Source: a virus
DNA length: 64,000 bases
Reading direction: 5' to 3' (one strand)
IMG/VR virus record: IMGVR_UViG_3300044949_002421
Location: 1-64,000 of that record
Part shown: one piece after another, positions 1,153-52,455 of the stretch
How the letters are laid out: every line of letters starts with the position of its first letter
How positions within the stretch are numbered: the stretch's first letter is position 1
The notes under the pieces: model-generated
Told to the model about the DNA's origin: nothing
Databases searched by the model: none
The model's input: the letters and a program-made list of their open reading frames with translations, nothing else
Translations under genes and position numbers: made by a program

Positions 1153-1464
1153 ATGAAAGCCATACTGATCGACCCTCAAGGGAAACCGCCCGTCAGCGAA
1201 ATCGAAGTCGAAAATGAATTGGAGCCGCTCCAGAAAATGGTCGGCGGCTATCTGGAGGCCCACCGGCTGGAAGGCGGCGATGTCCTCCTTGTGGACGAGG
1301 AGTGGACCATGAAGGCCAACCCAAACTTCAAGGGAAAGTTCACCCTCGGCCGGTTCACCTTTGGCGGCCGGGGCCTGATCGTCGGATCCAAGGGCGACAA
1401 TTTCACCGCACCCAAACTCAACCTTCTGGCCGCCTCAAGCTTGGTTAATATACATATTAGTTAA
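1153..1464 (+). CDS. DUF3846-like protein
   Basis: 103 residues. MKAILIDP, 'LQKMVGGYLEA', 'GDVLLVDEEW' and 'GGRGLIVG' match the usual order of DUF3846 elements: an N-terminal strand, 'lq..vgG.ie', 'vlv.dEe' and a closing 'G.alivG'. It is a paralogue of the protein at 249 and closer to the family norm. The function of the family is unknown. The gene has its own start signal and stands alone before the 9-bp repeat array. Confidence 0.75.
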   Translation: MKAILIDPQGKPPVSEIEVENELEPLQKMVGGYLEAHRLEGGDVLLVDEEWTMKANPNFKGKFTLGRFTFGGRGLIVGSKGDNFTAPKLNLLAASSLVNIHIS

Positions 1465-1480
1465 ACTTATCGTCATTCAA

Positions 1481-1627
1481 GTGTCACGAGTGTCCCAAGT
1501 GTCACGAGTGTCTTTCACTAAAAAGATAAAAATACCCAAGCGTCACAAGTGTCACAGGGCGTACTGGAGGCTAGAGGAAGCTACAAAGTGTGTTGTGACA
1601 GCGTGACACTCGTGACAGACGTGACAC
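1481..1627. repeat. two facing arrays of 9-bp GTGTCAC repeats
   Basis: Left array: GTGTC units start at 1481, 1490, 1499 and 1508, exactly 9 bp apart (GTGTCACGA, GTGTCCCAA, GTGTCACGA, GTGTCTTTC). A further pair lies at 1540 (GCGTCACAA) and 1549 (GTGTCACAG). Right array, opposite orientation: GTGACA units at 1595, 1603, 1612 and 1621. About 38 bp of other sequence separates the halves, so the DNA could fold into a long imperfect stem. It lies directly upstream of the serine recombinase gene. Likely roles are a recombination (res-like) site, a replication iteron array, or an operator. Confidence 0.8.
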
Positions 1628-1634
1628 TCGACTT

Positions 1635-1658
1635 AAAAACACGGCGGGTAATTGGTGT
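1635..1658 (+). promoter_or_regulatory. A-box/TAATT start signal (2)
   Basis: AAAAACA at 1635-1641 (C at 1640), TAATT at 1649-1653, ATG at 1659; spacings 9 and 10. Its A-box and spacer are identical to the leftward copy at 52329-52352. Confidence 0.85.
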
Positions 1659-2249
1659 ATGAACGCCGGCATCTACATCAGAGTATCCACCGAAGACCAG
1701 CACACCGACCTACAAAAACAGGAGCTTATCGCCATCGCCCAAAAGCGGGATTGGCAATACGCCATTTATGAGGATTTCGCCATGTCGGGGGCCAAACAGG
1801 ATCGCCCCTCCCTCGCCCGCCTCCTTGGGGACTGCCAGTCCGGGGCCATCCAAGTCGTCCTAGCCTACAAGCTCGACCGCTTGGGCCGGTCCACCCAGCA
1901 CCTCGCCGGCATCATCAACACCCTCTTGGAGTGCAACGCCGGCCTCTGCGTCCCGTCCCAAGGCATCGACACCTCCGCCGGATCCATCAACCCCGCCTCC
2001 AAACTCCAGCTCAACGTGCTTGCCGCCGTGGCCGAGTTCGAGCGCGACCTCATCCGCGAGCGCACCAAGTCGGGCATGAAAGCAGCCAAGGCCCGTGGCA
2101 TTCATGTCGGCCGGCGCGCCACCTACACCGAAGACCATAGAAATGTCGCACGAAAACTTTTGTCTTGCGGACCCCTCACCCTCAAGAAACTTGCACCCAT
2201 GGTCGGACTACCCATCACCACGACTTGGAGGATGCTGAAAACCTTATGA
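1659..2249 (+). CDS. serine recombinase (resolvase/invertase type)
   Basis: 196 residues, the normal size for a Tn3-type resolvase or DNA invertase. The catalytic Ser10 lies in 'YIRVSTEDQ'. 'YKLDRLGRS' and 'EFERDLIRERTKSG' supply the conserved Arg-rich active-site segments and the start of the E helix. The C-terminal 45 residues (GRRATYT to the end) form a short HTH for DNA binding. Small recombinases of this class resolve multimers or invert segments at paired short sites. The inverted 9-bp repeat array immediately upstream is the obvious candidate target. There is no large C-terminal domain, so a large-serine-integrase role is unlikely. Confidence 0.92.
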   Translation: MNAGIYIRVSTEDQHTDLQKQELIAIAQKRDWQYAIYEDFAMSGAKQDRPSLARLLGDCQSGAIQVVLAYKLDRLGRSTQHLAGIINTLLECNAGLCVPSQGIDTSAGSINPASKLQLNVLAAVAEFERDLIRERTKSGMKAAKARGIHVGRRATYTEDHRNVARKLLSCGPLTLKKLAPMVGLPITTTWRMLKTL

Positions 2250-11486: not shown

Positions 11487-14400
11487 ATGGGCTTGGATTC
11501 AATATTGGGCGGAAGCCCGAGAAACAAGGGCGAGGCCTACGAGGGTCCGGTCGCCGGCGGGATCATGAGCGGGCTAAGGGGAATGAAGTCCGACGAGAGG
11601 TCCGCCGAAGGGGAGTTTGAGCAAGAGCAAAAAGAGCAAAACAAGGCCTTTGAGGGCGGCAAAAAAGAAGTTTTCGAAGGTGCCGGAATATCCACCTACA
11701 CAGACCCGCAGGAAGGATTGCAGCCAAAGGTTTCTCTTGATCCCAATACCGGTATTAACAGGCTAGAGCGTCCCGAGGCCGAGTTCTCCGTCCAGCGTAG
11801 GCTCCCTACGGGCGAACTTGTCGACGATACCCTAAAGACAGACAAGTACGGCGGCGCAAAGGACAAAACTGCAAAGAAGCGGTCTCTGATAGTTGGCAAA
11901 GAGGCGTCATCTGATCCAAGAACCCCCAAAAGCGGTATTTACGAGGAATTCGAGGACCCAAGACAGCCCGACTTAAAAAACTACAAGTTTATCGGGGGCT
12001 ACGAAGAGCTTTCAAATTCTCAAGACCTAGGGGTCCGCGATGTGGCAAGAAAGGGCCTTCTCGAGCAAAATCAAAAGGCATCTTCCCTGCTCTCATCGGA
12101 GCTCCAGACTCAAATCGACGAAATTGACCTCAAAGAACGAGAGCTCCGCGATATGGAGGCGGCCTCAAAGACAACTGGAGAGTTGCCCATCTTCGAGGGG
12201 AAACAGCTTCAGCCAGAGGATTCGGCAAAAACGCGCCTTGGTCTTCAGCAGCAAATCACAGAACTAAAAAAACAAAGGGTTGCGCTTAAGCAGATTGAAA
12301 AGCAGGGCGTTGCCATGGACTTACTTCGTCAGGCCAAAGAAAGGGCCCTGCGCGAAGGAAGAAACCCGTCCGACGATCCGGTTGTAAAAAGCCTTCAAGA
12401 AACCTACAGAACCATTGGAAGGGAGACACCGGAAGAGGCATTCATGGCCAAGCCGGATCAGGTTGCCGTTGCCGGCGGGAAAGGAACCTTGATGATTGAG
12501 GGGGCAACCCCAGATGTTCCGGAGCAGCAAAAATCATCGTTTTTCAAAACAGCCGGAAATGATTTGCGCTCAAAGCTGAAGATTGAGCAAGAGTCCGGAA
12601 ACGTAAATGTGGAGAAGGCCAAGCTCTCGATCAAGGCTCAGGAAGAATACAATCAGGCCAGCAAGGAGATACTTCCCGCATCCATCAGGAAGCAGACAAT
12701 CAAGCAGCTGGTCGACATCTCCAACAGGGAGCTAGAAGAGGCAACGTCGCGCTGGGGCGAAATGAGCCAGCAGGAACAGGCAGAATTTAACGCCAGATTT
12801 GAGGGACGACGACAAGCAATCCAAAGGCTTGGCGATGAATATAAGGCCCTAGAGCCATCGGCAAACGCGGCCTCCGAGAGGGTCGGAACTATTTTTGAGA
12901 CAACTAGAGAGGCCGAAAAGTCTCTCAACGAGTCTTTTCAAAAAAAAACTGAAGAAATAAACAGAGAAGCCAACGCTTTTGCGAGAGCGCAGTCAGAGAG
13001 AGCGTCAGCAGGAATTCGGGACGAATACCTTAAGAAGCAGGCCAATTTCAATTCCATGGGCCAAAGATTTGGACAGCTGGCCCAAGCTGGTGATGACGCA
13101 GGAATTGTAAAACTTGCCCAAGATTACGTTGCAAGCGGCGGAAACAAGCAAGACGCCGACAGGATGATTTCAGACTACGGGAAATATAAAAAGTCAAAGG
13201 ATGGTCAGGGGTGGCTGGCAAACTCTATCGCATCGTTTATGCGGGCCCCGCTTATTGCCTCCCAAGAGTCGGCGGCTGGACTTTTCAAAATAGCCGCAAG
13301 CGGGCTAAGGGCAAAAGCCGCAGGCAAGGACGACGTTATGGATGCCATCGGCCCATCGGGATGGCTGGCAAAAGTGCTTCCAAGCCTAGAGAGCAATCCA
13401 GCATTGGCCCCTGTAAGGGTTGCCTCAGATATGGCCGGACAGGCCATTCTGGATAAGATTTACCAAACCAAGGCCGCCAAGCCGTTTGTTGAATACATCG
13501 CCGACTGGATGGACGGGGCGGCATCATCGGCCAAGGGGAATGTTGAGTTTCTTAAGAAGGGCTTTTATGTCGATCCCCAGTTCGAGGCATCAACAGCCGG
13601 CAATTTCCTAAAGGGCATCGGCGACTATGCTTGGACAGCCCTCCCCTACATAGCTCTCCGCAGCAAGGGCATTCCAGTTGGATTGGCCACAAATGTTGGA
13701 CGTCTTTATACGGAAGCTAGGGACGATCAGGAGCAGACCTATCAGGCAAAGCTCGCCGAGTTCAAGGCCGGCAAAATCAAAGACGAGCCAAAGCCCATGG
13801 ATGAATCTGATGCCCATATTGCCGCACTAAGGTACGCCGGGTTGGGCGGATTTATTGATACCGTATCCGACGCAATTGGCATGAGGCTGGCCTTTGGCCT
13901 TCTAAAGGGCGCGGCCGCAGTAACGCCAAAAACAGTTGGAAGCTTTTTCAGGCAAACGGCAATTCAGATTGGGGAAAAGAAAGTCCCGATGTGGCTGACT
14001 CCTCCCCTCGCCGGCGCGACTGAGTTTGGTGCCGAAGGGTCCCAAAAACTGATTCTAAATGCATTGGCCGAGAAGTACGAAAACTGGGACCCCAATAGGC
14101 CTTGGAACGAGGGTGCATTCGAAGAGGCCATGATGGGCTTTATGCTTGGATTCGCCCTTCCTGTTATCGGTGGTGCCGGAGGGGCCATTTACAAGAAGAC
14201 CGTAGTCATCCCGTCGATGCTGATGGAAAATGATGGCCTAGACCAAGTCTCAGTCCAATACCAAAACCTTTCCGTCGACGTTCCTATGGGTGGATGGAGG
14301 CAATATGCAGAAACGGTTACTCCCTCCGAGGCAAGCCCTCAGTTTGAACTTAACGCCAGACAGCCGTTTTCCATTCAAAACGAGCTTCGGGGAACCGGCG

Positions 14401-17400
14401 TCACTTGGGCAATTGCAGTTGGCCAGAGAATTGATTCAGAGATTTCAGCGACCAACTCACAGATTCAGCAAGCCTCAGATCCGGCCCAAGGAAAAATACT
14501 TCGCCTTAAAAGAAACGATTTACTCCTCCAGAGGTATAACCTTATTCAGGCGATGCAGGGAGACGCCGCCTTGCGCTTTTCCCTCCAAAATGAAATCGGC
14601 TCACTACCTGAACAGCCGCTTGCCAAGGGAGACGCAAGCCTACAGCAGGCCGCCCTAGCAGCAGCCAAGCATTCGATCGGCGCGCCAGTCACAAAGGCAG
14701 AATTAAAGATCAAGGTCGGCGGAACACAGCTTTTCCAGCAAACCGAGGACGGGAAAACAATTGTATCTCCATCATTTATGCGGTTCCTGTCCGGCAAGGC
14801 CCCGACGCTGGAATCGGTGGTGGCCAACAACCAAAACCTATTGGACTCTGCACCGCCAACCACCTTGGCCGAACAGCCGCCGGTTATTTCAGAGGTCAGG
14901 CCTCAGGAAGAGATTCGGGCAGAAAGGGATCAGGCGGCAAGGCAGCAGCTTGAAGCCGAGGCTCGGCCACAGCCAGCCACAGCCCCAGAGCAACAGCCAA
15001 CCCCCATGGGGCAAACTTGGGCCGTTCCATATACAAAGAACGGCAAAATCAAGGGGACTCTCACGATACAGGCCGATAACGAGAACAAGGCCAAACAGCT
15101 GGCCCTGCAACAGCTCAAGGAAGAGGGTGCAAAGAGCGTCTCTTTTGGGGATGTCCGGCTGGCCGAACAGCAAGACCTTGTGGGCCAAGAGCCAGCCGCG
15201 CTTCTTGCGGGTCCGGATCAGCAGAGAAAACGTGTCGGCGGAGCAGTTAATCCATACATGCGCCGGCTAGAGGGAAAAAACACAAAAGAAAGATACATCA
15301 ACGCAAGGCGCAGATTTGAAAGGTTCGCCGGCGAGGCCAGATCAATCTTCAAGGCTTCGATAGGAATTCAGGAAAGCACGGAAGCCAAAAAGCCATTTTC
15401 AGCAAGACTGGCCGACGACGGGACAATCACACTCGTCGTAAATCCAAAGCTATTTTCTGCCTTTGATGCCAAAAACCCTGAATTTAACAATCGAGCCTAC
15501 TCAGAAGAATTTCGGCACATGGCCGACTTTATTGCCAGCAATCTAAAGGCAAATGAATCCGGCCGCTCCGACTACCAGCAGTTTTACAAGGAAGAGAGGT
15601 CAAGGCTCTATCAAAGAATTTTTGAGACCAGCAAGCAGGATCCTCGCGTCCTTAATGCCCTCATGGCGTCTGCATCTCTTTATTTTGGCGATCAAGGCCC
15701 CCCACTAAAGGAGGGTGGGTACACGGCAGAGGAATTCATGGATTGGGCTGAGGGCTCCGGGATAAGCGATGTGACCCTCATGGGAGAGCTTCTGCAGCAA
15801 CTTGGAACAAGGCGGAAGACCGAAGCCGCAGTTGAGGTTGCCACGGCCATGAATAAGGGAGGTGGATCTATTACGGCCAGCCTCATGGAGGTTATCCGAG
15901 ATTACCTGAAGTCTATTCTTAGGGCCATCAACGGTCTTCGCCGAGCAATTACCGAAACAAACCCCGAAGTTGCGGCAGATTTGGATTCCCTGATCCAATC
16001 GATCAATGATGTCTTGAATATGCAGGCCTCGCCACAGGAGGAGGCTCAGTCTGGCATCGACACGGCAACTCAAAGGCGGCTTAGGGACATGGGCTTAACG
16101 CCGGCGGAGATCGCTCAGATGAATCCGGATCAGGCAAGGGAAAGGCTTCAGGGCCAAGTTCAGGTATCAGCCCCAGCCCAAACTCAGGGGCTAAAATCAA
16201 CCAACACCAGAAAGACCGAGTATGGCGTGGTGCGTTATGACCTAGATGTCGTTCCCCTGAGCGAGCTAAACAACATGGCCGGAACGGAGCTCCAGCTCCG
16301 GGATAGGACTGGAGACGAGGGATATGCGGCCAAGGTTGCCGTGATTGCCCGTGACTGGGATAAGGACGAGGCAGCGTCCAGAGACACGGGAGAGCTCGAC
16401 ACAGGGCCGGCAACCGTGATTGCGGCAGAAAGCAACCCATACGGGGTCAATCAGGCCGGTTTTGACATTATCGCCGGCCACGGAAGGACTGAGGGCTATT
16501 CCTCGGCCCCGGACGACAGAGTTGCCGACTATGTCGCAAAACTTAAAGCCAAATACCCCGATCTGGCAGCTAAGATTGACGCAATCATCGCCTCCGGCCA
16601 GAGGCCAATGCTTGTCAGAAAGATTGATTGGCAAAATACGTACAACCCATCCCTTGGTAACGAAAAGCAACATCTTCGCCGTATTGCAAGGGATGCCAAC
16701 CTAGGGACCGGGAACGAGAATGACGCTGAGGTGGCCCTAGCCGATGCCTTGGAAATCTCCGACGACAAAGACCTTAGCCTCCCTCAGGAAGTTATTGTTA
16801 ACGGGCAACCCAGCCTCCTCAACCAAGATGGGACGCCGGCTGGCAACAATGATGAAATCTTAGCTAAATGGCTTCGCATTTTTAGCAACGACAGCGACAG
16901 GCGATACTATCAAAACGGAGTCTACACACCCGAATTTGAGGCGAGAATCCGAAGGGCAATCTTGGGCTATGTCTTCGCCCCTACAAATGAAAAGGGCGAG
17001 ATGGCCCTCACAAAGCAGACCTTCGACACAATTAACATGCTGGTCTCTCCAACGATTGCTCGGAACAGCGGGATCGCGACCCTTCAGCAAGGACTTGAGA
17101 AGGCCTCCCCTTCCCTGTTCCGGGTAAAGCAGGATTTCCAGAAATACGAAAGCCTTCTTGGGCAAGACGCAAAAGACGCAAACCCAATTGTGGCCATACA
17201 AAAGTCTCTTTCCGACTACCTTGCCTACAGGGCCGAGCGCGAGCAGGCGGCGAGAAAGAGTGGGGACAACAGGGCCATCGCCATGGTTGGGCTGGCTGAG
17301 TATGAGGACTACATCAATCAATCCGGATTGTTTGGGTCGATCAGCCCACAGCAGGCCATGGTGCTTGTTCCGATTGTAAGGGACGGAAGGCTTGACGGAA

Positions 17401-20400
17401 TCCAAGGGGTCGCGGCTCCCCTAGCGAAAATCCAGAACGCTCGCGGCATCAAGGGGTCCCCGGACCGGATTGCGGCCTATATCGCCAACTATTCAGACAT
17501 GGTGGCAAGCATCTACAGGGAGGCCTCGGAGGCGATGCTCCCCGGGCTGGAAACAAAGCTCACTCCGGACATGAACTTAAACATGATCCGGATTGCCCTA
17601 GACAAAGCCGGAGCCATCTATCCGGACAACTCAAGGCCTCAGGCACCGATATTCCCAGCCCAAAGGGATACGCTTGAAATGGCGGCGAGAACACCAGAGC
17701 TGGATTCATCTCTGGGCGAAGGCAAAGGCAAGGTGGAGATCCGACCGGAAATCAATTACTCGAGAATTCTCAATCTTCTTGGCCCCAAGATGTATGAAAA
17801 GAATCTTGTTGAGGTCGCCGTTAAGGAGCTTTTACAGAACTCGTTTGACGCCGCCCGGGCCGCCGGAGCAACCAACGAAAACCCCGGACAGGTAACGATA
17901 AACCTAGATTATTCAAGTCGAACAGTCACGGTGAGGGACGACGGAGTTGGCATGACTCCGGAGATCATTCAAAAGGCCTTTTTCACAATTGCGGGAACCC
18001 ACAAGGAGCAAAGCGCGGAAAACACATCGGGTGGGCTTGGCCTTGCCAAGATGGCGTTCCTGTACGGATCAGACAGGGTCAGGGTTGTAAGCGTTAGAAA
18101 CGGCATTAAGTCCACGGTTGCCACGGATCGCCAAACCCTCCTAAACCGAGACCCGATCAATGTTGTAACAGAGAAAACATCGGAGCCGTCCGGAACAATC
18201 GTCGAGGTCGTCATTCCGCAAACAATTGAAGATTCAGAGGGAAATACGAAACAACTATTTTTCCCGCCAGAGCCGGCATTCCTAAGCAAGCCGTTGATTG
18301 GCCCGATTAAGGTAATACTTACCGCCGGGGATCCATCAAGCCCGTACAGAACAAACAAGATTCTAAATCTTGGCATAAACCAGCAGGACTACCAAAAAGA
18401 GACAAGGTTTGGATTTTCTTGGGGCAATATCGATGTCTACATCAACCCGGAAAGGCAGAAATATCCAGCTATTGAGATTCTTTCAGCCGGACTGCATCAG
18501 TTCGGCTTAAGTCGCTACGATGTGTTTGGGTGGCAGGAGGAGGACGTACTTCCGTACAACATAGTTCTCGATGTAAGGCCGTCGGTTAAACCTGAAAACG
18601 CCGCCTACCCATTCAACAACTCCAGAGAGGGATGGCGTGGCACCATCAAGGAGGATGTAAACGCCATGTATGGATACCTCAGGCGCATGGCAACCGAGCA
18701 AAACCTCCTTGAGGCCAAAGAATCATTTTCAAACTTGGAAAAAATGCCTCAGTTTGACCCCCAGAAGGATCTTACGCCCGGTGAGCTTGCAGACATCGCG
18801 GCCGCCCGGCCCAAGCCGCGCCCCACGGCCCCCATTGAGAAGCCGGAATTTGTCGATTTTTCGGGCGACAATGTGGTTATAAGGTATTCCGAACAATCCG
18901 GGATAAAGCCAAAAGAAATTGCAAAAGAAGAGTACGTCAAAAAGTCGTTTAAGCCGGAAAAAGACATCAATTTCCAATCAGCGGCTCTTGATGTCAGCGG
19001 GATGGATCCTCGGGTACCCCTGTTTCACAACAATACCAACATCGATTTCTCGGCTCAGGCAGACGGAGGTGCGGCCAAGAAGATGTTCGCAAGCCTTGGC
19101 AACGCGCTTTCCGGATTTATGAGGGAGTTCGGAGCTAAGGTTGGGCCCAATGTTAACCCCTACTCCGCCATGGCCTCGACCGGTGCGGATGGGTGGTTTT
19201 CCGGCATCTCCATAGACAAGGAATACAGGGGCTTAAATATGATTAAGCCATTTAAGTCCATCTGGTTTAACCCCGCCGGCTTGTCAGAGGACGCCATGGT
19301 TAGCCCAGAGGCCGCCGCCCTTGAGACAATTCACGTTTTCATCCACGAAATAACCCACGTCAACGCAAGGAATGAGGGCTCCGGGTTCACCTCGGAGCTC
19401 GCAAACAACTATGCAAGAATCCGTGCCTTCGGCGTTGACGACATAGCAACAGAACGGATACTTGCTAGCATATATGCAAGACATTGGAAGGACATCAATG
19501 ACCTCAGAACAAAATACACCAACTTCAGCACAAAGAATAGTGCAAGAGGTTTTCAATCGTCATCGGAATCGCTCGGAACCGGAACAGAGGCAAGCCAACC
19601 TAATCAGCCTCAAGACAATCCACAGGAATCTGTCGGAACTCAAGAACAGGGACGAGGCGGCAATAGCAGAGTTGGCGCAGAAGATAGCGGAACTGGAGCA
19701 AGCCTAGGCGAGATCATAGCCTCACGCGCCCGGACCGAGCGGGAGGCATTAAAATACCCAAATAGATACGCGCTTTCACTTCAGGCCAGATCCCCTGACC
19801 TTTTCGAGTCATCTGAAGAGCCGGAAAGCGAGGAGGATGCCGAAACCGGAGCAACCGAAGAGTCGGCCAAGAATGCCTATTTAGTCATACAAGAAATTGC
19901 CCCAATGGAGGGGCTTACCCGCACCGACCAAGGGATGAAGGAGGGCAGAATCCGTCCCGGCGGCAAGATAATCACCTACCTAGTCAACAAATCGGATTCC
20001 AGCGGAATGTCAGTTGCGGATCGGTTCTTTTCTCGTGGTTACGGAGAGGAGCAACTTCGGGAAATTATCTACGACAAGATGGTCGACGTTCTTTCGAAAT
20101 CGGCCAGCGGGAAACAGCTTGCCAAAGACTTTTTGGCGACCCGAGTAAACGCAAGCTCAAGCGACTTGGCCCTCTACAGCGAAGCCAGAAAGGCCTTTGT
20201 TCAGAAGATCATCAGAAAACTTTTGGTCGGCGGAAACAAAAACCCATCCATTGAGGATGTTGTTGCCGAGATGAGCGACAACGACCGCGCCCTTGGATTT
20301 GAAATGAGGCACATTGTCGGAGCGCGAGAGGAAATACGCCTTAACAACTTCCTAATGCGCTCGGTGGAAAATCACATTCGAAAGCTCGTTGGAAACTACG

Positions 20401-23400
20401 ATCAAGAGGGAAGGTCTCTAATCGTGACATCGGCAGAGGCAAGGGAAAGAAGGCCCACCGAAATCTCTGACGAGGACACAGAATCCATGGTCGAAAGAAA
20501 GTTTGTCAATCCGGATACCGGGAACGAGCTAGACCAGAGAGCAGACGAGTCCGCAAACCTTCAGGAGACACTCCTCGCCGAGTCAGGGACGGCAGCCGAG
20601 GTCATGGCCAGATACCTTGGGCCAGACAGCCTTCGGATTATTGAGATGAAGGTTCGAGGAATGACCTTTCAGGCCATAGCAGACGAAGAGGGGTTCACGG
20701 GGAACCGGCCTGACAATATAGCAAGATCCAGATTTGAAGAGGCCTACTCCAAGGTTCTAAATGCCATAGATGGCATCTATTCGGTAAAGAAGTCGCTAGA
20801 AGCAAGAGATTATCTTGGCGATGAGGAAAAAACAAAACTTAATGATTTTGACAAATTTCTTTCTGGGAGACTTGGACGCGGGGAAACATTTGAGTCAATC
20901 GCCTCGGCAAGGGCGGAGGCACAAAAGGCAATCAAAGACTCCGGAACTGGGGCTGGCCAGCTTGAGCTTGGGCTTGACGCCAGAACTCCTGACCTGCCCC
21001 CTCCCCGCCTTCTGGCAAAGTATTTTGAGCTTCGGGACAAGATTAAGTCCGGCGAATTCGAACCAAGCGATATGGACATGTTTGAGCGAATTGAGTCTAT
21101 GGCCATCAAGTTTGGCTGGCCAATTCCAGTCCAGCTGAGGCTTTTCGACATTCCAAATATTGTAAGGAGGGCTTCTGATCAGAGGAGCCAGCAGTCAGCG
21201 GGGCTTCAGGACGAGTTTGATTTTGGCCCTACTGAGCTTTTGTCGAGAACCCCTGACCTGATGAGTGCCGACGAGCTTCAGGAAGCTCTTGATGGTGACT
21301 GGATAACAAATGACGAGATTCAGGCTGCACTCAGGAATGATTCTGCCGGCGACAAGCGCGGGTTGGTCGATTACGGGAAGGGATCCGAGGCAAGCGCGGT
21401 CATCAGGGCCGGAAGAGAAGCCACCCCTAACCCTGAGCCATACACCAACGAAGAGGCCATGGCGAAGGCAGGAACAATCAGCCGAGGCCAAATATTAGGC
21501 CGGCTGGCCGGGCTTGAGGCCGGCGAGGTGTTGTCCAAAGACGAGGATTACGCGGCCCAGCGTGAACTCAACCAGCTTGCTCTTGAGGCATTCGCATCCG
21601 AGGACGAGAAGCAGATCAACGATTTCCTATATTTACAGAGGCAGTATGACAAATCCGGAACAGAGGCGGCCAGATCCTTGCAGGGTAGGAAGCCATTCAA
21701 TCCTGACGACAGGAATAGGAAGGCCGTCTATACCCCCCTCACCGCCATCGACAGGCGCGACCTTCAAAAAGAAGCCATTAACCTGACGGCAAAGCTAAAG
21801 GCAGACCTTTCCGTAGCCGAAGCATCCCTAAACGAGCAAAAGGCTCGGGCAAGGGCTCAATTTGGGCCTAATTTGCCTCAAGAATGGGCTGATTATATTT
21901 CCCAGCAAGAGGGCGCAATCGCCCAAATGAAGGCTGACATTGAGGATGGCGGGGTGCGAGTTGCCGAAAGACAGATTTTAGACAGGAATGCAAAGAAAGC
22001 CGACGAGGCCTTGGGCAAGGTCGGCAAGAGCCTCAAGGGGCTCGAAGAAGACAGCATGAAGAAGAAGCTGCGGACCGGCCAGACAGCCGGGCAGATTCTT
22101 GAGTCCATCAAAGACACCCAGCTTCGGGATGCAGTCCAATTATACCTTTTGGGCTATTCCGTTAAAGATATTGAAGCTCAGACTGGAATCAAAAACGGCA
22201 GAAACAAAATTAAGCTGGCTATCCTAAAGGGGCTACGACCAGAGGCAGATCGCCGGTTTGTCAGAGTCCTTGAGCAAGTTAAGGCCGGCAAAATGAGCAA
22301 AAAGCAGCTCATGATGGCCCTGAAAAAACACTCTGAGGGCCAAAGCCTGCTTGCCAGAGCTCCCGAGGATCCCAACCAAGACAACTTCACCGTGGATGAG
22401 GCAAGAGAGATGCTTTACGACGCCTTCGGTCTAAACACGGAAAACCTAGAAAACAAAGAGAGCGATCCCTTGTTTGGCTACGACGACCCACACGCCGCCA
22501 ACAAAATTTCCAGCATTATTTCCGAGGGCATCAATGGCCCTGCCTCATGGGGCAAAATAGCCTCCGATGTCTTTTCCTCCTTCATTTTCACGGGGGCCCC
22601 ATCTCTCGCCGCCAACGTGGCAACAATCCCCTTCGCCAAGCTGGCCATACCAATCCACCTATTTGTCGAGGCGATGACCACGTACTACAGGGCCGGAATT
22701 CGCGGCATCAAAATGACCGAAACGGTTTACGACAAAGTTCCTGTTTTCGATGAGGAGGGCAACCCAGCCGGGACGCGGGTAGCTCCTAAAGAAGTGGAAA
22801 TCGGTGCGCCATATCAAACCCTTGGTCAGGCAATAAAGGGCGGGTTTTCAGAAGCCTTCCGTGCCTACAGGGAGCTTGGCTGGCTTGGGTCAGATGGGGA
22901 GGCCCTGAAAAAGGCCGTGACTGCCTTTAACACCGAGACAATCCAGTTCGGCGTTGAGCAGGGCATTGTCAATGTTTCGGATGTCCGCCTTCGCGAATCT
23001 GGGGTTCTTGATAAATCAATCCCCGGCTTGGCCGGCAAGGCCGTCAGGCTCGGGGTAAACATCTTGCTCGCCGGCGACGAATACAACAAAACGATGCGAG
23101 CCAAGGCCTATGTCGGCGCATTCGCTTACCGGCTTGCCAAGGCAAAGGGGCTTGAGGGCGATGCGGTCAATGAATACGTAGAAAGCGAGTTTGCAGACAA
23201 GACATCCCTGTCTTGGAGACTTGCTGTCGACCGCACTCTTCGCGACACCTTTACCCAGCGTCTTTCCATACGTGGGGACGAGGAGCTCTTAACTCCACAA
23301 CCGCTTTGGGAGAAGGCCAAGGGGCTCACTCGCTCGCTCCGTGACTATCAGTCGACGGGCGAGCTTCTTGGGCTCGCCCCAGAGGCATTGACGATGATCA

Positions 23401-24773
23401 ATATGGAGCTTGGCCGTGCCGCCAGCCGGGTTGCCCGTGGGTCCAAAATCAAGGTTTTTGGAAGAACTCTGAGCCCAACGGAATTGGCCCTCAGATTCGC
23501 CCAAAGCTTCTTAATTTTGATTAGAAGCCCATACAACATCGCCCGCGCTTCAGCGGCATACTCGCCGTTTGCCATGGCCAATGTTGCCCTAAGGGCGTCC
23601 CGTGGTCGCGTTGCCAACACGATGAATGTTTTTGACTTCAATACTCTATCCCAAAGGCATGCGGAAGCACTTCTGGGGATTACGGGGCTCGTATCCCTTT
23701 TTGCCTTTGCCGAGGGGGACGATGATGATGACGACAAGACTGTGCTCATAACCGGGTCTGGAGGTGTCAGAACAAAATATGGCAACCCATCTACTTCCGT
23801 CATTATTCGGACTCCACTTGGAAACTATGTGATCCCATACGGGAGGTACGAGCCCGTTAGTGCGCTCGCCTATTTGATTGATGCGGCAAGGGCTACGAAG
23901 CAAGTTACAAATGAGAGACAGCCCGCATCCGAGGCCGTTGGGAACTACGTTCAGGAGTTTCTCAGGTATCCATTCACAAAGACTTTTGCAAAGGCGGTTC
24001 GTGATTTTGGGAAGCTGACTGGTTTCGATAATCCGTCCGACACCGGCAAATACAAGGGCTACGATGTCTTGCGCGAAAGAATTTCCTCCATAGCCATCCC
24101 AAACTTCTTTAAGAGGCTATTTGAGCCCGGCGCAGTCACCTTTGGTGATGAGTCTTGGGATGTTGACAGAATGACCGGCTGGGGGCCGACAGAAATGGCC
24201 GGATGGGTTAACTCGTTTTTGCCCGGCCTCCCTGCCCTAACTGGAGAGGAAGACATCTCCCTGCCGCCAAGATATAGTGCCGACCTAAAGGTAAGAGACA
24301 GGGAGATTACCGGAGCAGAGGTTCTTGCAAAGAATGTCGGGATTCCGGAGCGCGCGGCTAGACTTATGGGCGGATTAAGCAAGGGTCTGGTTCCGGACGG
24401 AATTGCCTATGTGGAATCGAAGAAAGGGAAACTCGATAAATTTGTGTCTGCCTACAACGCAAGATTCCCACAAACAAGATATCAGCCAAAGGCCCCCAAT
24501 CGCTTTATTCAGCTAAAGGATAAAGACGGAATCTCGACAAACGAAGAGATGACCCCGTCAGAATACAAAACCATGCTGGCCCTAGCCTCAAAATATGCCG
24601 GCGATAGAATTGATAATGTCCTTACCGACGAAAGAATTTCAAACCCAACCGAAGCCACAAGAAAACTTGTAGACTCCATCCGAGAGGATGCCGTAAGCCG
24701 TGCAAGACAAGCAGTTCGGAATGCGCGACGCGCAAAAGAGAAAAGGGCTGTTGAATCGGCCGGCGTTAGGTAG
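11487..24773 (+). CDS. giant polyvalent virion protein (4,428 aa)
   Basis: About 0.49 MDa. Order of recognisable parts: charged coiled-coil N-terminus (1-560); amphipathic 'large polyvalent protein' segments with the typical 'TEFGAEGSQK...GFMLGFALPVIGGAGGA' (about 835-905); ParB/DdrB-like domain (about 1575-1760, with 'AGHGRTEG' near 1664); GHKL/HSP90-type ATPase (about 2085-2370: 'KELLQNSFDAA' N-box near 2113, 'DDGVGM' near 2151, 'GGLGLAK' near 2182); zincin with HEITH near 2620; sigma-like segment (2790-3095) ending in an HTH; second HTH near 3547-3585; C-terminal segment with 'LIRSPYNIARASAAYSPF' near 4010 and an Asp run near 4080. Known polyvalent proteins of phages and conjugative elements are thought to be injected with DNA to block host defences. 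It lies between TerL and portal, fitting a packaged ejection protein. Its start lacks a good SD. Confidence 0.88.
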   Translation: MGLDSILGGSPRNKGEAYEGPVAGGIMSGLRGMKSDERSAEGEFEQEQKEQNKAFEGGKKEVFEGAGISTYTDPQEGLQPKVSLDPNTGINRLERPEAEFSVQRRLPTGELVDDTLKTDKYGGAKDKTAKKRSLIVGKEASSDPRTPKSGIYEEFEDPRQPDLKNYKFIGGYEELSNSQDLGVRDVARKGLLEQNQKASSLLSSELQTQIDEIDLKERELRDMEAASKTTGELPIFEGKQLQPEDSAKTRLGLQQQITELKKQRVALKQIEKQGVAMDLLRQAKERALREGRNPSDDPVVKSLQETYRTIGRETPEEAFMAKPDQVAVAGGKGTLMIEGATPDVPEQQKSSFFKTAGNDLRSKLKIEQESGNVNVEKAKLSIKAQEEYNQASKEILPASIRKQTIKQLVDISNRELEEATSRWGEMSQQEQAEFNARFEGRRQAIQRLGDEYKALEPSANAASERVGTIFETTREAEKSLNESFQKKTEEINREANAFARAQSERASAGIRDEYLKKQANFNSMGQRFGQLAQAGDDAGIVKLAQDYVASGGNKQDADRMISDYGKYKKSKDGQGWLANSIASFMRAPLIASQESAAGLFKIAASGLRAKAAGKDDVMDAIGPSGWLAKVLPSLESNPALAPVRVASDMAGQAILDKIYQTKAAKPFVEYIADWMDGAASSAKGNVEFLKKGFYVDPQFEASTAGNFLKGIGDYAWTALPYIALRSKGIPVGLATNVGRLYTEARDDQEQTYQAKLAEFKAGKIKDEPKPMDESDAHIAALRYAGLGGFIDTVSDAIGMRLAFGLLKGAAAVTPKTVGSFFRQTAIQIGEKKVPMWLTPPLAGATEFGAEGSQKLILNALAEKYENWDPNRPWNEGAFEEAMMGFMLGFALPVIGGAGGAIYKKTVVIPSMLMENDGLDQVSVQYQNLSVDVPMGGWRQYAETVTPSEASPQFELNARQPFSIQNELRGTGVTWAIAVGQRIDSEISATNSQIQQASDPAQGKILRLKRNDLLLQRYNLIQAMQGDAALRFSLQNEIGSLPEQPLAKGDASLQQAALAAAKHSIGAPVTKAELKIKVGGTQLFQQTEDGKTIVSPSFMRFLSGKAPTLESVVANNQNLLDSAPPTTLAEQPPVISEVRPQEEIRAERDQAARQQLEAEARPQPATAPEQQPTPMGQTWAVPYTKNGKIKGTLTIQADNENKAKQLALQQLKEEGAKSVSFGDVRLAEQQDLVGQEPAALLAGPDQQRKRVGGAVNPYMRRLEGKNTKERYINARRRFERFAGEARSIFKASIGIQESTEAKKPFSARLADDGTITLVVNPKLFSAFDAKNPEFNNRAYSEEFRHMADFIASNLKANESGRSDYQQFYKEERSRLYQRIFETSKQDPRVLNALMASASLYFGDQGPPLKEGGYTAEEFMDWAEGSGISDVTLMGELLQQLGTRRKTEAAVEVATAMNKGGGSITASLMEVIRDYLKSILRAINGLRRAITETNPEVAADLDSLIQSINDVLNMQASPQEEAQSGIDTATQRRLRDMGLTPAEIAQMNPDQARERLQGQVQVSAPAQTQGLKSTNTRKTEYGVVRYDLDVVPLSELNNMAGTELQLRDRTGDEGYAAKVAVIARDWDKDEAASRDTGELDTGPATVIAAESNPYGVNQAGFDIIAGHGRTEGYSSAPDDRVADYVAKLKAKYPDLAAKIDAIIASGQRPMLVRKIDWQNTYNPSLGNEKQHLRRIARDANLGTGNENDAEVALADALEISDDKDLSLPQEVIVNGQPSLLNQDGTPAGNNDEILAKWLRIFSNDSDRRYYQNGVYTPEFEARIRRAILGYVFAPTNEKGEMALTKQTFDTINMLVSPTIARNSGIATLQQGLEKASPSLFRVKQDFQKYESLLGQDAKDANPIVAIQKSLSDYLAYRAEREQAARKSGDNRAIAMVGLAEYEDYINQSGLFGSISPQQAMVLVPIVRDGRLDGIQGVAAPLAKIQNARGIKGSPDRIAAYIANYSDMVASIYREASEAMLPGLETKLTPDMNLNMIRIALDKAGAIYPDNSRPQAPIFPAQRDTLEMAARTPELDSSLGEGKGKVEIRPEINYSRILNLLGPKMYEKNLVEVAVKELLQNSFDAARAAGATNENPGQVTINLDYSSRTVTVRDDGVGMTPEIIQKAFFTIAGTHKEQSAENTSGGLGLAKMAFLYGSDRVRVVSVRNGIKSTVATDRQTLLNRDPINVVTEKTSEPSGTIVEVVIPQTIEDSEGNTKQLFFPPEPAFLSKPLIGPIKVILTAGDPSSPYRTNKILNLGINQQDYQKETRFGFSWGNIDVYINPERQKYPAIEILSAGLHQFGLSRYDVFGWQEEDVLPYNIVLDVRPSVKPENAAYPFNNSREGWRGTIKEDVNAMYGYLRRMATEQNLLEAKESFSNLEKMPQFDPQKDLTPGELADIAAARPKPRPTAPIEKPEFVDFSGDNVVIRYSEQSGIKPKEIAKEEYVKKSFKPEKDINFQSAALDVSGMDPRVPLFHNNTNIDFSAQADGGAAKKMFASLGNALSGFMREFGAKVGPNVNPYSAMASTGADGWFSGISIDKEYRGLNMIKPFKSIWFNPAGLSEDAMVSPEAAALETIHVFIHEITHVNARNEGSGFTSELANNYARIRAFGVDDIATERILASIYARHWKDINDLRTKYTNFSTKNSARGFQSSSESLGTGTEASQPNQPQDNPQESVGTQEQGRGGNSRVGAEDSGTGASLGEIIASRARTEREALKYPNRYALSLQARSPDLFESSEEPESEEDAETGATEESAKNAYLVIQEIAPMEGLTRTDQGMKEGRIRPGGKIITYLVNKSDSSGMSVADRFFSRGYGEEQLREIIYDKMVDVLSKSASGKQLAKDFLATRVNASSSDLALYSEARKAFVQKIIRKLLVGGNKNPSIEDVVAEMSDNDRALGFEMRHIVGAREEIRLNNFLMRSVENHIRKLVGNYDQEGRSLIVTSAEARERRPTEISDEDTESMVERKFVNPDTGNELDQRADESANLQETLLAESGTAAEVMARYLGPDSLRIIEMKVRGMTFQAIADEEGFTGNRPDNIARSRFEEAYSKVLNAIDGIYSVKKSLEARDYLGDEEKTKLNDFDKFLSGRLGRGETFESIASARAEAQKAIKDSGTGAGQLELGLDARTPDLPPPRLLAKYFELRDKIKSGEFEPSDMDMFERIESMAIKFGWPIPVQLRLFDIPNIVRRASDQRSQQSAGLQDEFDFGPTELLSRTPDLMSADELQEALDGDWITNDEIQAALRNDSAGDKRGLVDYGKGSEASAVIRAGREATPNPEPYTNEEAMAKAGTISRGQILGRLAGLEAGEVLSKDEDYAAQRELNQLALEAFASEDEKQINDFLYLQRQYDKSGTEAARSLQGRKPFNPDDRNRKAVYTPLTAIDRRDLQKEAINLTAKLKADLSVAEASLNEQKARARAQFGPNLPQEWADYISQQEGAIAQMKADIEDGGVRVAERQILDRNAKKADEALGKVGKSLKGLEEDSMKKKLRTGQTAGQILESIKDTQLRDAVQLYLLGYSVKDIEAQTGIKNGRNKIKLAILKGLRPEADRRFVRVLEQVKAGKMSKKQLMMALKKHSEGQSLLARAPEDPNQDNFTVDEAREMLYDAFGLNTENLENKESDPLFGYDDPHAANKISSIISEGINGPASWGKIASDVFSSFIFTGAPSLAANVATIPFAKLAIPIHLFVEAMTTYYRAGIRGIKMTETVYDKVPVFDEEGNPAGTRVAPKEVEIGAPYQTLGQAIKGGFSEAFRAYRELGWLGSDGEALKKAVTAFNTETIQFGVEQGIVNVSDVRLRESGVLDKSIPGLAGKAVRLGVNILLAGDEYNKTMRAKAYVGAFAYRLAKAKGLEGDAVNEYVESEFADKTSLSWRLAVDRTLRDTFTQRLSIRGDEELLTPQPLWEKAKGLTRSLRDYQSTGELLGLAPEALTMINMELGRAASRVARGSKIKVFGRTLSPTELALRFAQSFLILIRSPYNIARASAAYSPFAMANVALRASRGRVANTMNVFDFNTLSQRHAEALLGITGLVSLFAFAEGDDDDDDKTVLITGSGGVRTKYGNPSTSVIIRTPLGNYVIPYGRYEPVSALAYLIDAARATKQVTNERQPASEAVGNYVQEFLRYPFTKTFAKAVRDFGKLTGFDNPSDTGKYKGYDVLRERISSIAIPNFFKRLFEPGAVTFGDESWDVDRMTGWGPTEMAGWVNSFLPGLPALTGEEDISLPPRYSADLKVRDREITGAEVLAKNVGIPERAARLMGGLSKGLVPDGIAYVESKKGKLDKFVSAYNARFPQTRYQPKAPNRFIQLKDKDGISTNEEMTPSEYKTMLALASKYAGDRIDNVLTDERISNPTEATRKLVDSIREDAVSRARQAVRNARRAKEKRAVESAGVR

Positions 24774-44319: not shown

Positions 44320-44695
44320 TGGGAATGCTCACCTTCTTGCCGTATTTTTTCTCGATATCAGCCACAAGCTCTTCGGTTCTTCGCTTGAACTCCTCATTCG
44401 ACATCAAAAACATCTCTCTGGCTTTTTCGTACTGCTCGCCGTTGAGCATCTTTTTGAGCCAATTCCATCCGTCCGATGGAAGGCGAATGCATGCAAACCT
44501 AATTGAGTAACAAATCCCATTGGCAGCACAAAAGTTTTTGACCGGCTGGCCGACCCTCTCCCACTCCTCCGAGCCAAACCTTCCGGCCCTTCGTTCCCCG
44601 CCAAGCTCGCCAATGATGGACACGGCGTCGATATACCAATACTGGCTTTTAACATCCAAAATCTGCGGCTGGTATGTCTGGGTCTCCAAGTTCAC
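44309..44695 (-). CDS. hypothetical protein
   Basis: 128 residues. 'NFCAANGICYSIRFACIRLPSDGWNWLKK' near the middle has three cysteines; the C-terminal third is a charged helix. Unknown. It lies in the compact leftward operon next to the replication-initiator-like gene. Confidence 0.45.
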   Translation of the reverse strand: MNLETQTYQPQILDVKSQYWYIDAVSIIGELGGERRAGRFGSEEWERVGQPVKNFCAANGICYSIRFACIRLPSDGWNWLKKMLNGEQYEKAREMFLMSNEEFKRRTEELVADIEKKYGKKVSIPNVC

Positions 44696-45381
44696 GCCGG
44701 CACCCCCTCAAGCTCGCGCTTCCTTAAAATCAAATCCTCCTCGGACGGCTTTCCGGCCGCCTCCCATGCCTGTTTCGAGCCAAGCCCACACCAAGGACGG
44801 CCTGACGGAGGGCTGTAACAATGGAAATTATTTGGCCTTTCCTTTCTCTTTGGGGCAAGGGTTGGTATCGCGCGATTCATCCACCCAGTCACAAATTTAA
44901 GGCAGTACCTTTTGTCTGGGTGTGCCAGCAAATAGGCCTGAAGCTTCTTCATCTCAAGAGCCACATCAACACCCCTCTCACGAGATAGCTTTAGAACTTG
45001 CTCTATTTTTACCGCCTCGTCTTCCCCCTTGGCCTCGTTTATCTCCTTCTCAATCCTTGCCTGCTCCCGAACCATTCTTCTTGAGTAAATAACCCCCTCG
45101 GAGTTGCGGCTAAAAACCCCGGAGTTTTCCAGCTCGTTGCAGATCGAAATTGCGTGTTTCTTCTCAATTTTGAGCCTTTTTGCAATATCCCCGGCGTTAA
45201 TGAACTTTCCGTCGGCATTTAGCAGATATCCCCTTTTGGGGGATACATGCATAAGCAAAAGCATCTCCAGCCATAGGGCTTTCGCCTCTAAGGTCAGTCT
45301 CGCCGTGTCCCCCCACCAACTGGCGGGACTAAACTTTAGACACGATGATTTCGATGCAGGGGTTTTCGCCTGTAGCTCCAT
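44692..45381 (-). CDS. replication-initiator-like protein (DUF1376-like)
   Basis: 229 residues from the ATG at 45381; an upstream ATG at 45420 is possible but overlaps rusA more. 'LKFSPASWWGDTARLTLEAKALWLEMLLLMHVSPKRGYLL' is the opening of DUF1376/replisome-organiser proteins. It is followed by a winged HTH ('GDIAKRLKIEKKHAISICNELENSGVF'). The C-terminal part is a charged helix and a Trp-containing tail (FVTGWMNRAI). Expected to bind the origin and recruit the host helicase. Confidence 0.6.
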   Translation of the reverse strand: MELQAKTPASKSSCLKFSPASWWGDTARLTLEAKALWLEMLLLMHVSPKRGYLLNADGKFINAGDIAKRLKIEKKHAISICNELENSGVFSRNSEGVIYSRRMVREQARIEKEINEAKGEDEAVKIEQVLKLSRERGVDVALEMKKLQAYLLAHPDKRYCLKFVTGWMNRAIPTLAPKRKERPNNFHCYSPPSGRPWCGLGSKQAWEAAGKPSEEDLILRKRELEGVPA

Positions 45382-45745
45382 AAACCTTTGTGATGTCTCC
45401 GGTGACAACCTGAGCGTCATCCAGCCACCATTCGCTGGATGTCAAAGCGTCCATCACCGGCTTGATTAAATTGTCCCTATCCGGACGAACCGGGGCGTAT
45501 TCCCTAGCCCCCTTCTTTTTGCCCTTGGGCCTAGCCAAAACAAAAGTCACATCGGCCTTGAGCGGTCCCTCCAGCGGGCTTGCGGGCGCAGACTTGTTTG
45601 CGGAAAAAACAAGATCCCGCATGTAAAGTTTGTAAGCGGAATTGCGAAATACCCTCACCCCACCCTTAGAAACAAATCTGAGGGTGCTTTGGATGCTCCT
45701 AGGGGCAACCGGTAGCGTGGCAACTATCCTGTTAGAACTCGCCAT
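45329..45745 (-). CDS. rusA: RusA-family Holliday junction resolvase
   Basis: 138 residues, close to RusA size. The conserved acidic core 'PDRDNLIKPVMDAL' (Asp89, Asp91, Asp99) and 'WWLDDAQVV' (Asp109, Asp110) is intact, and 'TFVLARPKGKKKGA' matches the preceding strand. It cuts four-way junctions during recombination or packaging. It overlaps the next leftward gene. Confidence 0.88.
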   Translation of the reverse strand: MASSNRIVATLPVAPRSIQSTLRFVSKGGVRVFRNSAYKLYMRDLVFSANKSAPASPLEGPLKADVTFVLARPKGKKKGAREYAPVRPDRDNLIKPVMDALTSSEWWLDDAQVVTGDITKVYGATGENPCIEIIVSKV

Positions 45746-47114: not shown

Positions 47115-47254
47115 TCTTGATACCCCTTTCTGATGTTTTTCTTGGTTGCCTTCTTCTTTGTAGGCTTCTTGATGAGCTTTGGCTCCATGTCCTCTCGGAT
47201 CTTGGGGGTATTGCTCACCATCTCGCCCTTGCTGATGAACGCCTGCTGGCTCAT
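47111..47254 (-). CDS. small lysine-rich protein
   Basis: 47 residues (MSQQAFISKGEMVSNT..), ending in a Lys-rich tail (KKPTKKKATKKNIRKG). ATGA overlaps at both ends support it. Probably nucleic-acid binding. Confidence 0.6.
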   Translation of the reverse strand: MSQQAFISKGEMVSNTPKIREDMEPKLIKKPTKKKATKKNIRKGYQE

Positions 47255-47832
47255 TCGTATTCCTCCCAGTTGAATGCCCCGATCACCTTTTTCATGTTTT
47301 CGGCGAATAGCCTGTTGCTCTTGATGAGTTTCGGAACCCGCCTCACGGCATGAAGGACGGTCCCGTGGTCTTTGTTGAAGACTTGGCCAATGTCGATCAG
47401 CGTCATTTGCAGTTTTTCACGCATGACGTACATCGCCGCCATTCTCGCAAAGGCGATATGGTTCGGGCGTTCCGGTCCAAGCAGTTTATCGACCGGAATC
47501 CCAAACGCGCTTGAGGTGGCCATGATGACGTGCTTCCCCTCGATTGCGCCCGGCTTGTTGAGCAGCCCCATCTTGTGAAGGGCCCCAACCTCCATCGCTA
47601 GGCGAAGGGTTACATCCCTATATGAGGCCATCTCCATCCTCATCGCCTGAACATCCGAAACCGCCTGTCTTATCTGGGAGATAATCCCCTCCAAACGGGC
47701 AACCTCGGAATTGGCCAGCGGATCCAGAATCCGGCTTGCGTTCTTCTCCAAGAAATCGCCCAGCATAGGGTTAGAGTCAAAATTGACCGCCCTGAGCGAG
47801 TTCACGCTTACATCAACTGCACCTGATTTCAT
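47251..47832 (-). CDS. DnaA domain IV-like protein without ATPase
   Basis: 193 residues. Residues 105-180 match the C-terminal DNA-binding domain of DnaA: 'FGIPVDKLLGPERPNHIAFARMAAMYVMREKLQMTLIDIGQVFNKDHGTVLHAVRRV', including the K-D-H-G-T-V-L-H-A signature (Lys154-Ala162). The N-terminal 100 residues are helical (coiled coil near 44-70). There is no AAA+ domain. It could recognise DnaA-box-like sites and either recruit or block the host DnaA. AAGGAGA precedes the ATG by 5 nt. Confidence 0.82.
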   Translation of the reverse strand: MKSGAVDVSVNSLRAVNFDSNPMLGDFLEKNASRILDPLANSEVARLEGIISQIRQAVSDVQAMRMEMASYRDVTLRLAMEVGALHKMGLLNKPGAIEGKHVIMATSSAFGIPVDKLLGPERPNHIAFARMAAMYVMREKLQMTLIDIGQVFNKDHGTVLHAVRRVPKLIKSNRLFAENMKKVIGAFNWEEYE

Positions 47833-50875: not shown

Positions 50876-51457
50876 TTATTGTGCGACAAACTTATCGCTT
50901 GGCACAACATCACCGGACACGTTTACAGCTTTACGCATCCTCCATCGTGCGAGTGCCGCAAGCCGAGCGGAGACACGCTTTTTCGGTGATGATTTTCTGC
51001 CCCCGAGACTCCCGAGGTATTGCATCCTTTTTCGTACAGCGGCTTCAACGTCGGGCACACTATTTTTAGTGCCTAGTTGTGTCAACACAAAATTTTTTAC
51101 TCTCTTCTTTGCCGCCTCACGGCGGGTAGTTTTGGGGTCATTTTGGGGCTTGGAATTGCAGGCTCGTTTACATTCCAGACAGCAGGCCCTACAGCCCCGC
51201 CATCGCTCCTCGTCAGCCAGAAGGTTCTCGGGGTCGCATAGATAGACATTCTTGCCATTGATCGACCTGATCCTCACAAAAGTCGTCATATAGTCCGGCA
51301 AAGGGTTTTTAGGCTCAAATTCGCCCGCCAAGAGCAGCTGACCGTCCGGGTCCATGGGTCGTGTGTCTACGGATAGGTTCCCAAGCACAACTACACTTGT
51401 TCCTACCCCTAAAGGGACATGCGGAAATCTTTTCTGTTTCGGGCAATAAGTTCGCAT
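50876..51457 (-). CDS. hypothetical basic Cys-containing protein
   Basis: 193 residues from ATG 51457; Met at 51355 (MDPDGQLLLAG) is another likely start. 'NVYLCDPENLLADEERWRGCRACCLECKRACNSK' is a cysteine cluster; 'GGRKSSPKKRVSARLAALARWRMRKA' is a basic C-terminus of a kind common in phage early proteins. A weak copy of the A-box/TAATT signal (AAAAAC, TAGTT 9 nt after the C) precedes the start, but with the wrong spacing to the in-frame ATG. Confidence 0.5.
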   Translation of the reverse strand: MRTYCPKQKRFPHVPLGVGTSVVVLGNLSVDTRPMDPDGQLLLAGEFEPKNPLPDYMTTFVRIRSINGKNVYLCDPENLLADEERWRGCRACCLECKRACNSKPQNDPKTTRREAAKKRVKNFVLTQLGTKNSVPDVEAAVRKRMQYLGSLGGRKSSPKKRVSARLAALARWRMRKAVNVSGDVVPSDKFVAQ

Positions 51458-51505
51458 CCATATGCAACTACACTCTGTGTTTTTACACCCAGACCTCACA
51501 AGCAA

Positions 51506-51718
51506 TCGGTTGTAGGGATTTACTTAAAAACCCAATTAACGCTACCGGCTCCGCTTCGAAAGTTTGGGGTATTCATAAATTAGCCCAATTTGATTAGTGG
51601 TAAAAAAAACAAAACCCCACCAATTTTGTCAATTTTAAAATATCATAAACCATTGATATTTAGGTGTTAAACACCAATTATATCCTTCTTTAGATGCATT
51701 TATAGGGCATACACGCTT
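51506..51718. other. AT-rich divergent control region
   Basis: Separates the leftward operon from the rightward early genes. Contains the promoter/operator below, a T-run and A-run at 51601-51609, and no gene. Confidence 0.6.
51638..51682 (+). promoter_or_regulatory. promoter with operator palindromes
   Basis: AAATATCA (51638-51645) and TGATATTT (51654-51661) form a perfect inverted repeat. GGTGTT (51663-51668), one A, and AACACC (51670-51675) form a second. A possible promoter is TTGATA (51653-51658), 17-nt spacer, AATTAT (51676-51681), reading rightward. The second palindrome lies inside its spacer, so a repressor there would block the gene at 51719, possibly its own product. Confidence 0.55.
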
Positions 51719-51958
51719 ATGCCCAATCAACGCCATAAGCATAAGGTCTTTCTGGGGCTATGGGTCCGCAAGGGACTCAGGGCTTGGCTCGTTATTGAGG
51801 CCCGCAGGGCCAAAGAAACCCTGACAGGCCTTGTTGAGCGACTTATCAGTTCAGCCCGGGCTCAAGCATCTGCCGGCGACGGGCGGTATCCTTCAGCACG
51901 GAAAACTCCCTCGAAACGGCCATCTTCGCCAAAGAAACCTTCCCGCCGATACCGGTAA
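51719..51958 (+). CDS. ribbon-helix-helix-like regulator
   Basis: 79 residues. 'HKVFLGLWVRKGLRAWLVIEARRAKETLTGLVERLISSA' reads as a strand followed by two helices, like small Arc/CopG repressors. The C-terminal 30 residues are Ser/Pro/Arg-rich and lie over the 3' end of the leftward gene at 51846, so they may be partly disordered. It is the first rightward gene after the operator pair and may be an autorepressor. It lacks the A-box/TAATT signal. Confidence 0.5.
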   Translation: MPNQRHKHKVFLGLWVRKGLRAWLVIEARRAKETLTGLVERLISSARAQASAGDGRYPSARKTPSKRPSSPKKPSRRYR

Positions 51959-52328: not shown

Positions 52329-52352
52329 ACGGCAAATACCCGCCGTGTTTTT
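52329..52352 (-). promoter_or_regulatory. A-box/TATTT start signal, leftward
   Basis: Read on the minus strand: AAAAACACGGCGGG followed by TATTT. C-to-T distance 9, T-to-ATG 10. The first 16 nt are identical to the copy at 1635-1650. Only member on this strand and the only one with TATTT rather than TAATT. Confidence 0.75.
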
Positions 52353-52430
52353 AAGCGCAAGCCTTTGTGGTGATTTATTAAAATAATCCTTGCCCACCCC
52401 ACCGCCTCACGTAGCCGGATGGAGGTGAGC

Positions 52431-52455
52431 AAAAAACAACGCGGGTAATTGGGTT
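52431..52455 (+). promoter_or_regulatory. A-box/TAATT start signal (4)
   Basis: AAAAAAC (C at 52437), TAATT at 52446, ATG 52456. Back to back with the leftward copy, 80 bp apart. Confidence 0.85.

Follow-up and report, generated by a model that had tools for sequence, protein, structure and literature searches.

The closest known case to the locus described here is either the SPP1 origins oriR and oriL with gp38 or the lambda origin with O, and SPP1 is the nearest parallel. The lambda origin iterons lie within the initiator gene. Direct repeats bound by gp38 occur both within the gp38 gene (oriL) and at a site about 13 kb from it (oriR), an A+T-rich stretch is present at each of these two origins (PMC6316719), the lambda iterons adjoin an A+T-rich stretch (PMC3349717), and SaPI origins have short iterons directly 3' of rep, the initiator helicase gene (PMC7581432).

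The DNA analysed here (the window) covers positions 1-64000 of a virus record that is 64,799 bases long and whose ends share a repeat of about 110 bp. The window encodes tailed phage genes (terminase, SU10-type portal and capsid protein) and, among its other proteins, an exonuclease and a ligase-like protein. A single ORF of 4,428 residues with an HATPase domain near residue 2110 occupies 11487-24773, and at 58315-60632 a glutamine amidotransferase-like gene follows an Amidoligase_2 gene. Ten 9-bp units with the consensus AGTGTCACR are located at 1478-1630. Sequence comparison suggests that this array is probably a replication origin of the iteron type (or one of two such origins), read by the putative winged-helix replisome organizer of the phage. 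The features of the window are as follows:

1153-1464, plus strand: gene encoding a DUF3846 protein, on the upstream side of the array
1478-1512, plus strand: direct block A, made up of four 9-bp units in a row (CAAGTGTCA CGAGTGTCC CAAGTGTCA CGAGTGTC), read from the sequence
1513-1534, no strand: A+T-rich stretch of 22 bp (86% A+T, by composition) between the direct blocks; candidate unwinding element
1537-1554, plus strand: direct block B, a pair of 9-bp units (CAAGCGTCA CAAGTGTCA)
1555-1594, no strand: 40-bp spacer separating the facing blocks, with AAAGTGTGTTG at its right end, a sequence also found in L091
1595-1630, minus strand: inverted block, four units, read from the sequence
1659-2249, plus strand: serine recombinase of 196 aa, resolvase/invertase type with a C-terminal HTH, Resolvase Pfam family; neighbour of the array
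44692-45420, minus strand: putative winged-helix replisome organizer, which most likely reads the array, with its recognition helix predicted at residues 87-99
47251-47832, minus strand: small protein with DnaA domain IV (Bac_DnaA_C, E 1.8e-18); alternative reader
51506-51845, no strand: intergenic A+T-rich element with the palindrome GGTGTTAAACACC at 51663-51675

The direct units, read from the sequence, start at 1478, 1487, 1496 and 1505 in exact 9-bp steps and then at 1537 and 1546. They are split four plus two by the 22-bp stretch, with a step of 32 bp from the last unit before it to the first unit after it, which is no multiple of 9. The inverted units (GTGACA) start at 1595, 1603, 1612 and 1621 with steps of 8, 9 and 9 bp. 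The first-pass annotation had described facing blocks of six and four units repeating at exactly 9 bp; the counts and the facing arrangement held, while the exact spacing gave way to a 4 + 2 split of the direct units and an innermost inverted step of 8 bp. The 9-bp phase itself is real and recurs beside replication genes in other phages. The arms of the array are 30 nt each and 83% complementary with 95 nt between them. When GTGTCACNNGTGTC was searched with up to two mismatches there were 10 matches in the window, eight of them at the array, compared to 2.9 expected window-wide, and none of 100 shuffles reached 10. A motif-free search also identified the array as the densest 6-mer cluster of the window with 7 copies in 160 bp. 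In 60 dinucleotide shuffles the densest 6-mer cluster had 4 copies (59 shuffles) or 5 copies (one shuffle), and facing clusters of three plus three were never seen. Two marks of origins of the SPP1 or lambda kind were present: clustered short direct repeats and, within the array, an A+T-rich stretch (1513-1534, 86% A+T) that may act in unwinding. Folded as single-strand DNA, 1470-1640 gave a z of -2.6, with 3 of 200 shuffles equally stable, and this stability was not counted as evidence because any inverted array would give it. GC skew along the window had no turning point at the array and was uninformative.

Uniqueness to one isolate would have counted against the first-pass annotation. The array is not unique, as near-identical arrays were found in L003, L068 (G011) and L091 (G012). 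Direct block B and the inverted block make up the part of the array common to the window and G011/G012. In these two records the array has a different place, between homologues of the window genes 51846-52397 and 50876-51505, where it occupies the position of the palindrome element. At this place the window, G002, G005 and G009 have the element with the palindrome GGTGTTNAACACC in lieu of the array; with one base varying, GGTGTTAAACACC also occurs in G002, G005 and G009, and the element may be a further origin or an operator. Directly adjoining the facing array, L091 (5862-5925) and G011 (19314-19365) have another 9-bp array, of the GTGCTAGGG type with the core CTAG.

The organizer was assigned using PHROGs (phrog_13246, E 3.2e-5; phrog_186, E 0.0017). 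Pfam gave nothing for the window organizer (best E 0.12), and in two relatives Phage_rep_org_N matched below the cut-off (E 0.02 and 0.087). The structural model was of middling confidence with a mean pLDDT of 68, and Foldseek using this model returned no PDB match under E 0.001 and weak generic winged-helix matches only. In Pseudanabaena phage Pam1 the replicative helicase gene is overlapped by an organizer homologue. The organizer was present in 10 of the 11 records tested, the exception (G001) being a 20-kb fragment.

The array motif and the predicted recognition helix of the organizer changed together in two comparisons. Between the window and G011, which shares the array, the predicted helix was identical at 13/13 residues as compared to 84% for the rest of the protein, and between the window and the array-less G002 it was identical at 7/13 residues with the rest at 76%. 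In the second, independent comparison the organizer segment GEDSQTTRKLLEELEANG was invariant in four phages with CGTGAC arrays (G006-G009) and the phage with a CGTTAC array (G005) had GEPTDVTRKLLQELERNG. Organizer identity was 86-94% among G006-G009 (each to G009) and 61-64% to G005, with neighbour genes at 87-97%. The other HTH gene near the organizer varied freely among the four CGTGAC phages with no sorting by motif. The recognition helix alone may not set specificity, because the organizers of L239 and L292 have a common GTGAC motif and unlike recognition helices.

In relatives of the organizer that have such repeats, these are mostly within the organizer gene. An organizer-led search found 218 loci, 80 of which were kept, and repeat chains in the organizer gene plus 400 bp numbered 24 in 65 kb, about 10 times the density elsewhere, where 39 were found in 1,129 kb. 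Chains were present in the gene in 22 of the 80 loci, with several near-duplicates (nine AACCTT loci), and some of these chains may be conserved coding sequence. The chains were of 10 motif types, and two (L239 and L292) were GTGAC-type like the window. The array does not adjoin the organizer gene in the window, G009, G005, G011 or G012; in the window the two are about 21 kb apart along the circular map. For G013-G018, with organizers 31-85% identical, the available stretches (several are fragments) contained no facing array.

Similar arrays were found at replication genes elsewhere. A motif scan of viral contigs produced 62 loci, which were sorted by eye into 13 coding repeats and 49 others, and dropping the near-identical contig of the window (L064) left 48 non-coding loci, a few of which may still be coding repeats. 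At 21 of these 48 loci a primase/helicase gene was located within 250 bp of the array. These neighbour genes had, or clustered with genes that had, VapE, Prim-Pol, D5_N/DUF5906, DUF3987, AAA_25, PriCT or Toprim domains, based on a Pfam scan in 13 loci and on BLAST clustering with scanned VapE proteins in eight. The remaining 27 loci had no replication match among the neighbours scanned, which covered some of the 27.

A single VapE/Prim-Pol protein, chosen as query to avoid motif bias, recovered 42 loci, and 9-bp repeats followed the VapE gene in 21 of the 21 3' flanks inspected by eye, the other 21 loci being mostly cut or partial matches. This count was made by eye because a strict automatic detector of facing 9-bp runs missed degenerate arrays that were plain to the eye; the detector reported 8/42 loci (seven at the 3' end of the gene and one inside it) and 0/42 after shuffling. 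In distant VapE members the unit changed to TTCTACACG (L131, L132) or GTTACCCTT (L140, L141) with the 9-bp step constant, and a spacer resembling GCTAAGTTGTTGAT was retained in most of the VapE-led arrays. The motif-led and VapE-led sets overlap because five contigs (L102, L103, L110, L115 and L116) are common to both, and the four contigs with other motifs (L131, L132, L140 and L141) are in the VapE-led set and outside the motif-led set. Among genome contigs there was a single facing match, in a Cellulomonas MAG, where the array has the motif of the window and lies within an AAA-ATPase-like gene, at its 3' end; read by eye, the encoded protein has a C-terminal winged-helix-like segment. Terminase relatives, sought among the genome contigs for the question of the host, were not found.

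The first-pass annotation had offered a res site, an iteron origin and a partition centromere for the array and a phage-plasmid lifestyle for the virus. The iteron origin is the option favoured by the covariation of helix and motif, the arrays inside organizer genes and the arrays at replication genes elsewhere; the res site was weakened, and partition and the phage-plasmid lifestyle were without support among the window genes scanned. As an origin the array would be bound by the organizer (44692-45420, minus strand) at the AGTGTCACR units from both sides. The organizer would then wrap or melt the A+T-rich stretch within the array and recruit a host DnaB-type helicase, and theta replication would follow. 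The array may be the distant one of two origins. Against an origin, G002 has no array of this kind and presumably replicates all the same.

Unusual points are the facing layout of contiguous 9-bp units, the way this layout recurs with initiators unrelated to one another, the turnover of the motif and the move between loci, and a literature search, with most subscription papers out of reach, found no description of facing 9-bp arrays. We tentatively propose, as a possibility on the doubtful side, that phages with unrelated initiators (replisome organizers, VapE, D5-type primase-helicases and AAA_25 helicases) have one general design of origin in common, built of facing arrays of contiguous 9-bp iterons that are swapped and moved as cassettes with fast motif turnover and a constant 9-bp phase. 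Such a general design would require an initiator filament or ring geometry unlike that at known iteron origins.

A DnaA-like protein is the alternative reader, with the array as an origin or control site either of the phage DnaA-domain-IV protein (47251-47832) or of host DnaA. The Bac_DnaA_C match (E 1.8e-18) is consistent with this, as are the 9-bp length of the unit, which is that of a DnaA box, its CACR ending, and the identity of the protein, which was 81% in the array-bearing G011/G012 and 49-50% in the array-less G002 with neighbours at 83-91%. However, the homologue is absent from G005-G009, which have CGTGAC or CGTTAC arrays, and the DHGTVLHA recognition motif is retained in the array-less G002. 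The unit is also unlike the DnaA box, whose consensus is TTATNCACA and which had zero occurrences in the window. Together these data make DnaA-type reading of the array unlikely. At 47251-47832 the phage encodes DnaA domain IV as a stand-alone protein, which was found in 3/11 records. In an alignment with E. coli DnaA, the residues equivalent to R399, R407 and H434 were kept.

That the array abuts a resolvase-type gene, as originally described, was confirmed, with the recombinase start codon at 1659 located 28 bp past the end of the array. This proximity suggests that the array could be the recombinase's own site, which would serve either for res-like recombination or as an operator for autoregulation, bound at repeated half-sites (TGTC, as in those of gamma-delta res). 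Among 17 contigs with close relatives of the recombinase, repeat clusters were present upstream of the gene in seven from two lineages (L003 and L013-L018) and absent in 10; at distant invertase loci a 6-mer cluster of six or more was seen in 3/63. L003 has the array of the window, L013 has ten CGTTAC repeats about 11 bp apart, and L014-L018 have six CGTGAC repeats that are 10-11 bp apart in places. The clusters did not follow the recombinase, however. G002 (L004) encodes an 84% identical recombinase, yet the array is absent from its entire 64.9-kb record, and at the matching place the DUF3846 gene and the array are both absent. The recombinases of G005 (L013) and G009 (L018) are 99% identical but their motifs differ (CGTTAC vs CGTGAC), and G011 (L068) and G012 (L091) have nearly the array of the window without the recombinase alongside, although the G011 record stops just before the recombinase locus, where a second array may lie. 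Resolvase sites have a 12-bp arm, for which 9-bp direct half-sites are too short. Because of the G002, G005/G009 and G011/G012 comparisons, which show a site neither kept with nor specific to its recombinase, the recombinase is an unlikely reader, the array is probably not its target, and we consider a site of its own, whether res-like or autoregulatory, to be improbable. A search for invertible segments near the tail-fibre gene, made to account for the recombinase, found no convincing pair with exact arms of at least 13 bp, a limit that imperfect 26-bp sites could escape.

A start-associated motif, GGTAATTN5ATG, has 14 exact copies in the window compared to 0.03 expected, at 1647-1661, at 2753-2767 and at 12 sites in 52444-63711 (the 52-64 kb block). 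Relatives had 12 (G002), 12 (G011), 8 (G012) and 13 (G001) copies, and G003, G005 and G009 had none. The motif has the look of a promoter or translation signal specific to the clade and is comparable to the start-associated sequences of mycobacteriophages.

A partition centromere, or the multi-site operator of an early-gene regulator, with no origin is very unlikely. Short tandem repeats that run both ways would fit binding by repressors or RHH/ParB-like proteins, and the array is within a gene's promoter region. In other phages, however, arrays of this sort are concentrated at genes for replication, and among the window proteins scanned (small ORFs in part) there was no ParA/ParB-type gene and nothing that pointed to partition or to a phage-plasmid lifestyle.

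Origins in uncultured phages are seldom annotated. If the array is an origin read by the organizer, origins in many such phages would be marked by a simple signature, facing 9-bp repeats close to the gene of a winged-helix initiator or of a primase-helicase, and the initiator/motif pairs (CGTGAC/CGTTAC and GTGTCCC/TTCTACACG) would be material for studying how initiator specificity changes. The locus also carries a caution that repeats beside a recombinase need not be its target site.

Compared to known systems, the window repeats resemble Tn3/gamma-delta-type res sites in adjoining a Resolvase-family serine recombinase gene and differ from them in the recombinase-linkage comparisons. The Rep-type origins of SaPI and SCCmec are matched by the phages with VapE/D5-type proteins, whose arrays are directly downstream of the helicase gene. 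In contrast, the window array is located away from replication genes, between the DUF3846 gene and the recombinase rather than directly downstream of an initiator helicase gene, and no SF3-type helicase was found among the scanned window proteins. Lambda shares with the window iterons and an A+T-rich stretch, and its in-gene iterons are as in the distant relatives of the window organizer, whereas lambda has four iterons and the ten 9-bp units of the window run in opposite orientations at a place apart from the initiator gene. The wrapping or melting and the recruitment of a DnaB-type helicase by SPP1 gp38 and lambda O are the model for what the window organizer would do. Unlike those of SPP1, the window units are 9 bp, contiguous and facing, with none inside the window's organizer gene. 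SPP1 gp38 and the window organizer are likened here by layout and not by sequence: both systems have direct repeats with an A+T-rich stretch, and the SPP1 pattern of repeats in the gene and far from it would be mirrored by the organizer relatives, with repeats in the gene, and by the window, with repeats far away.
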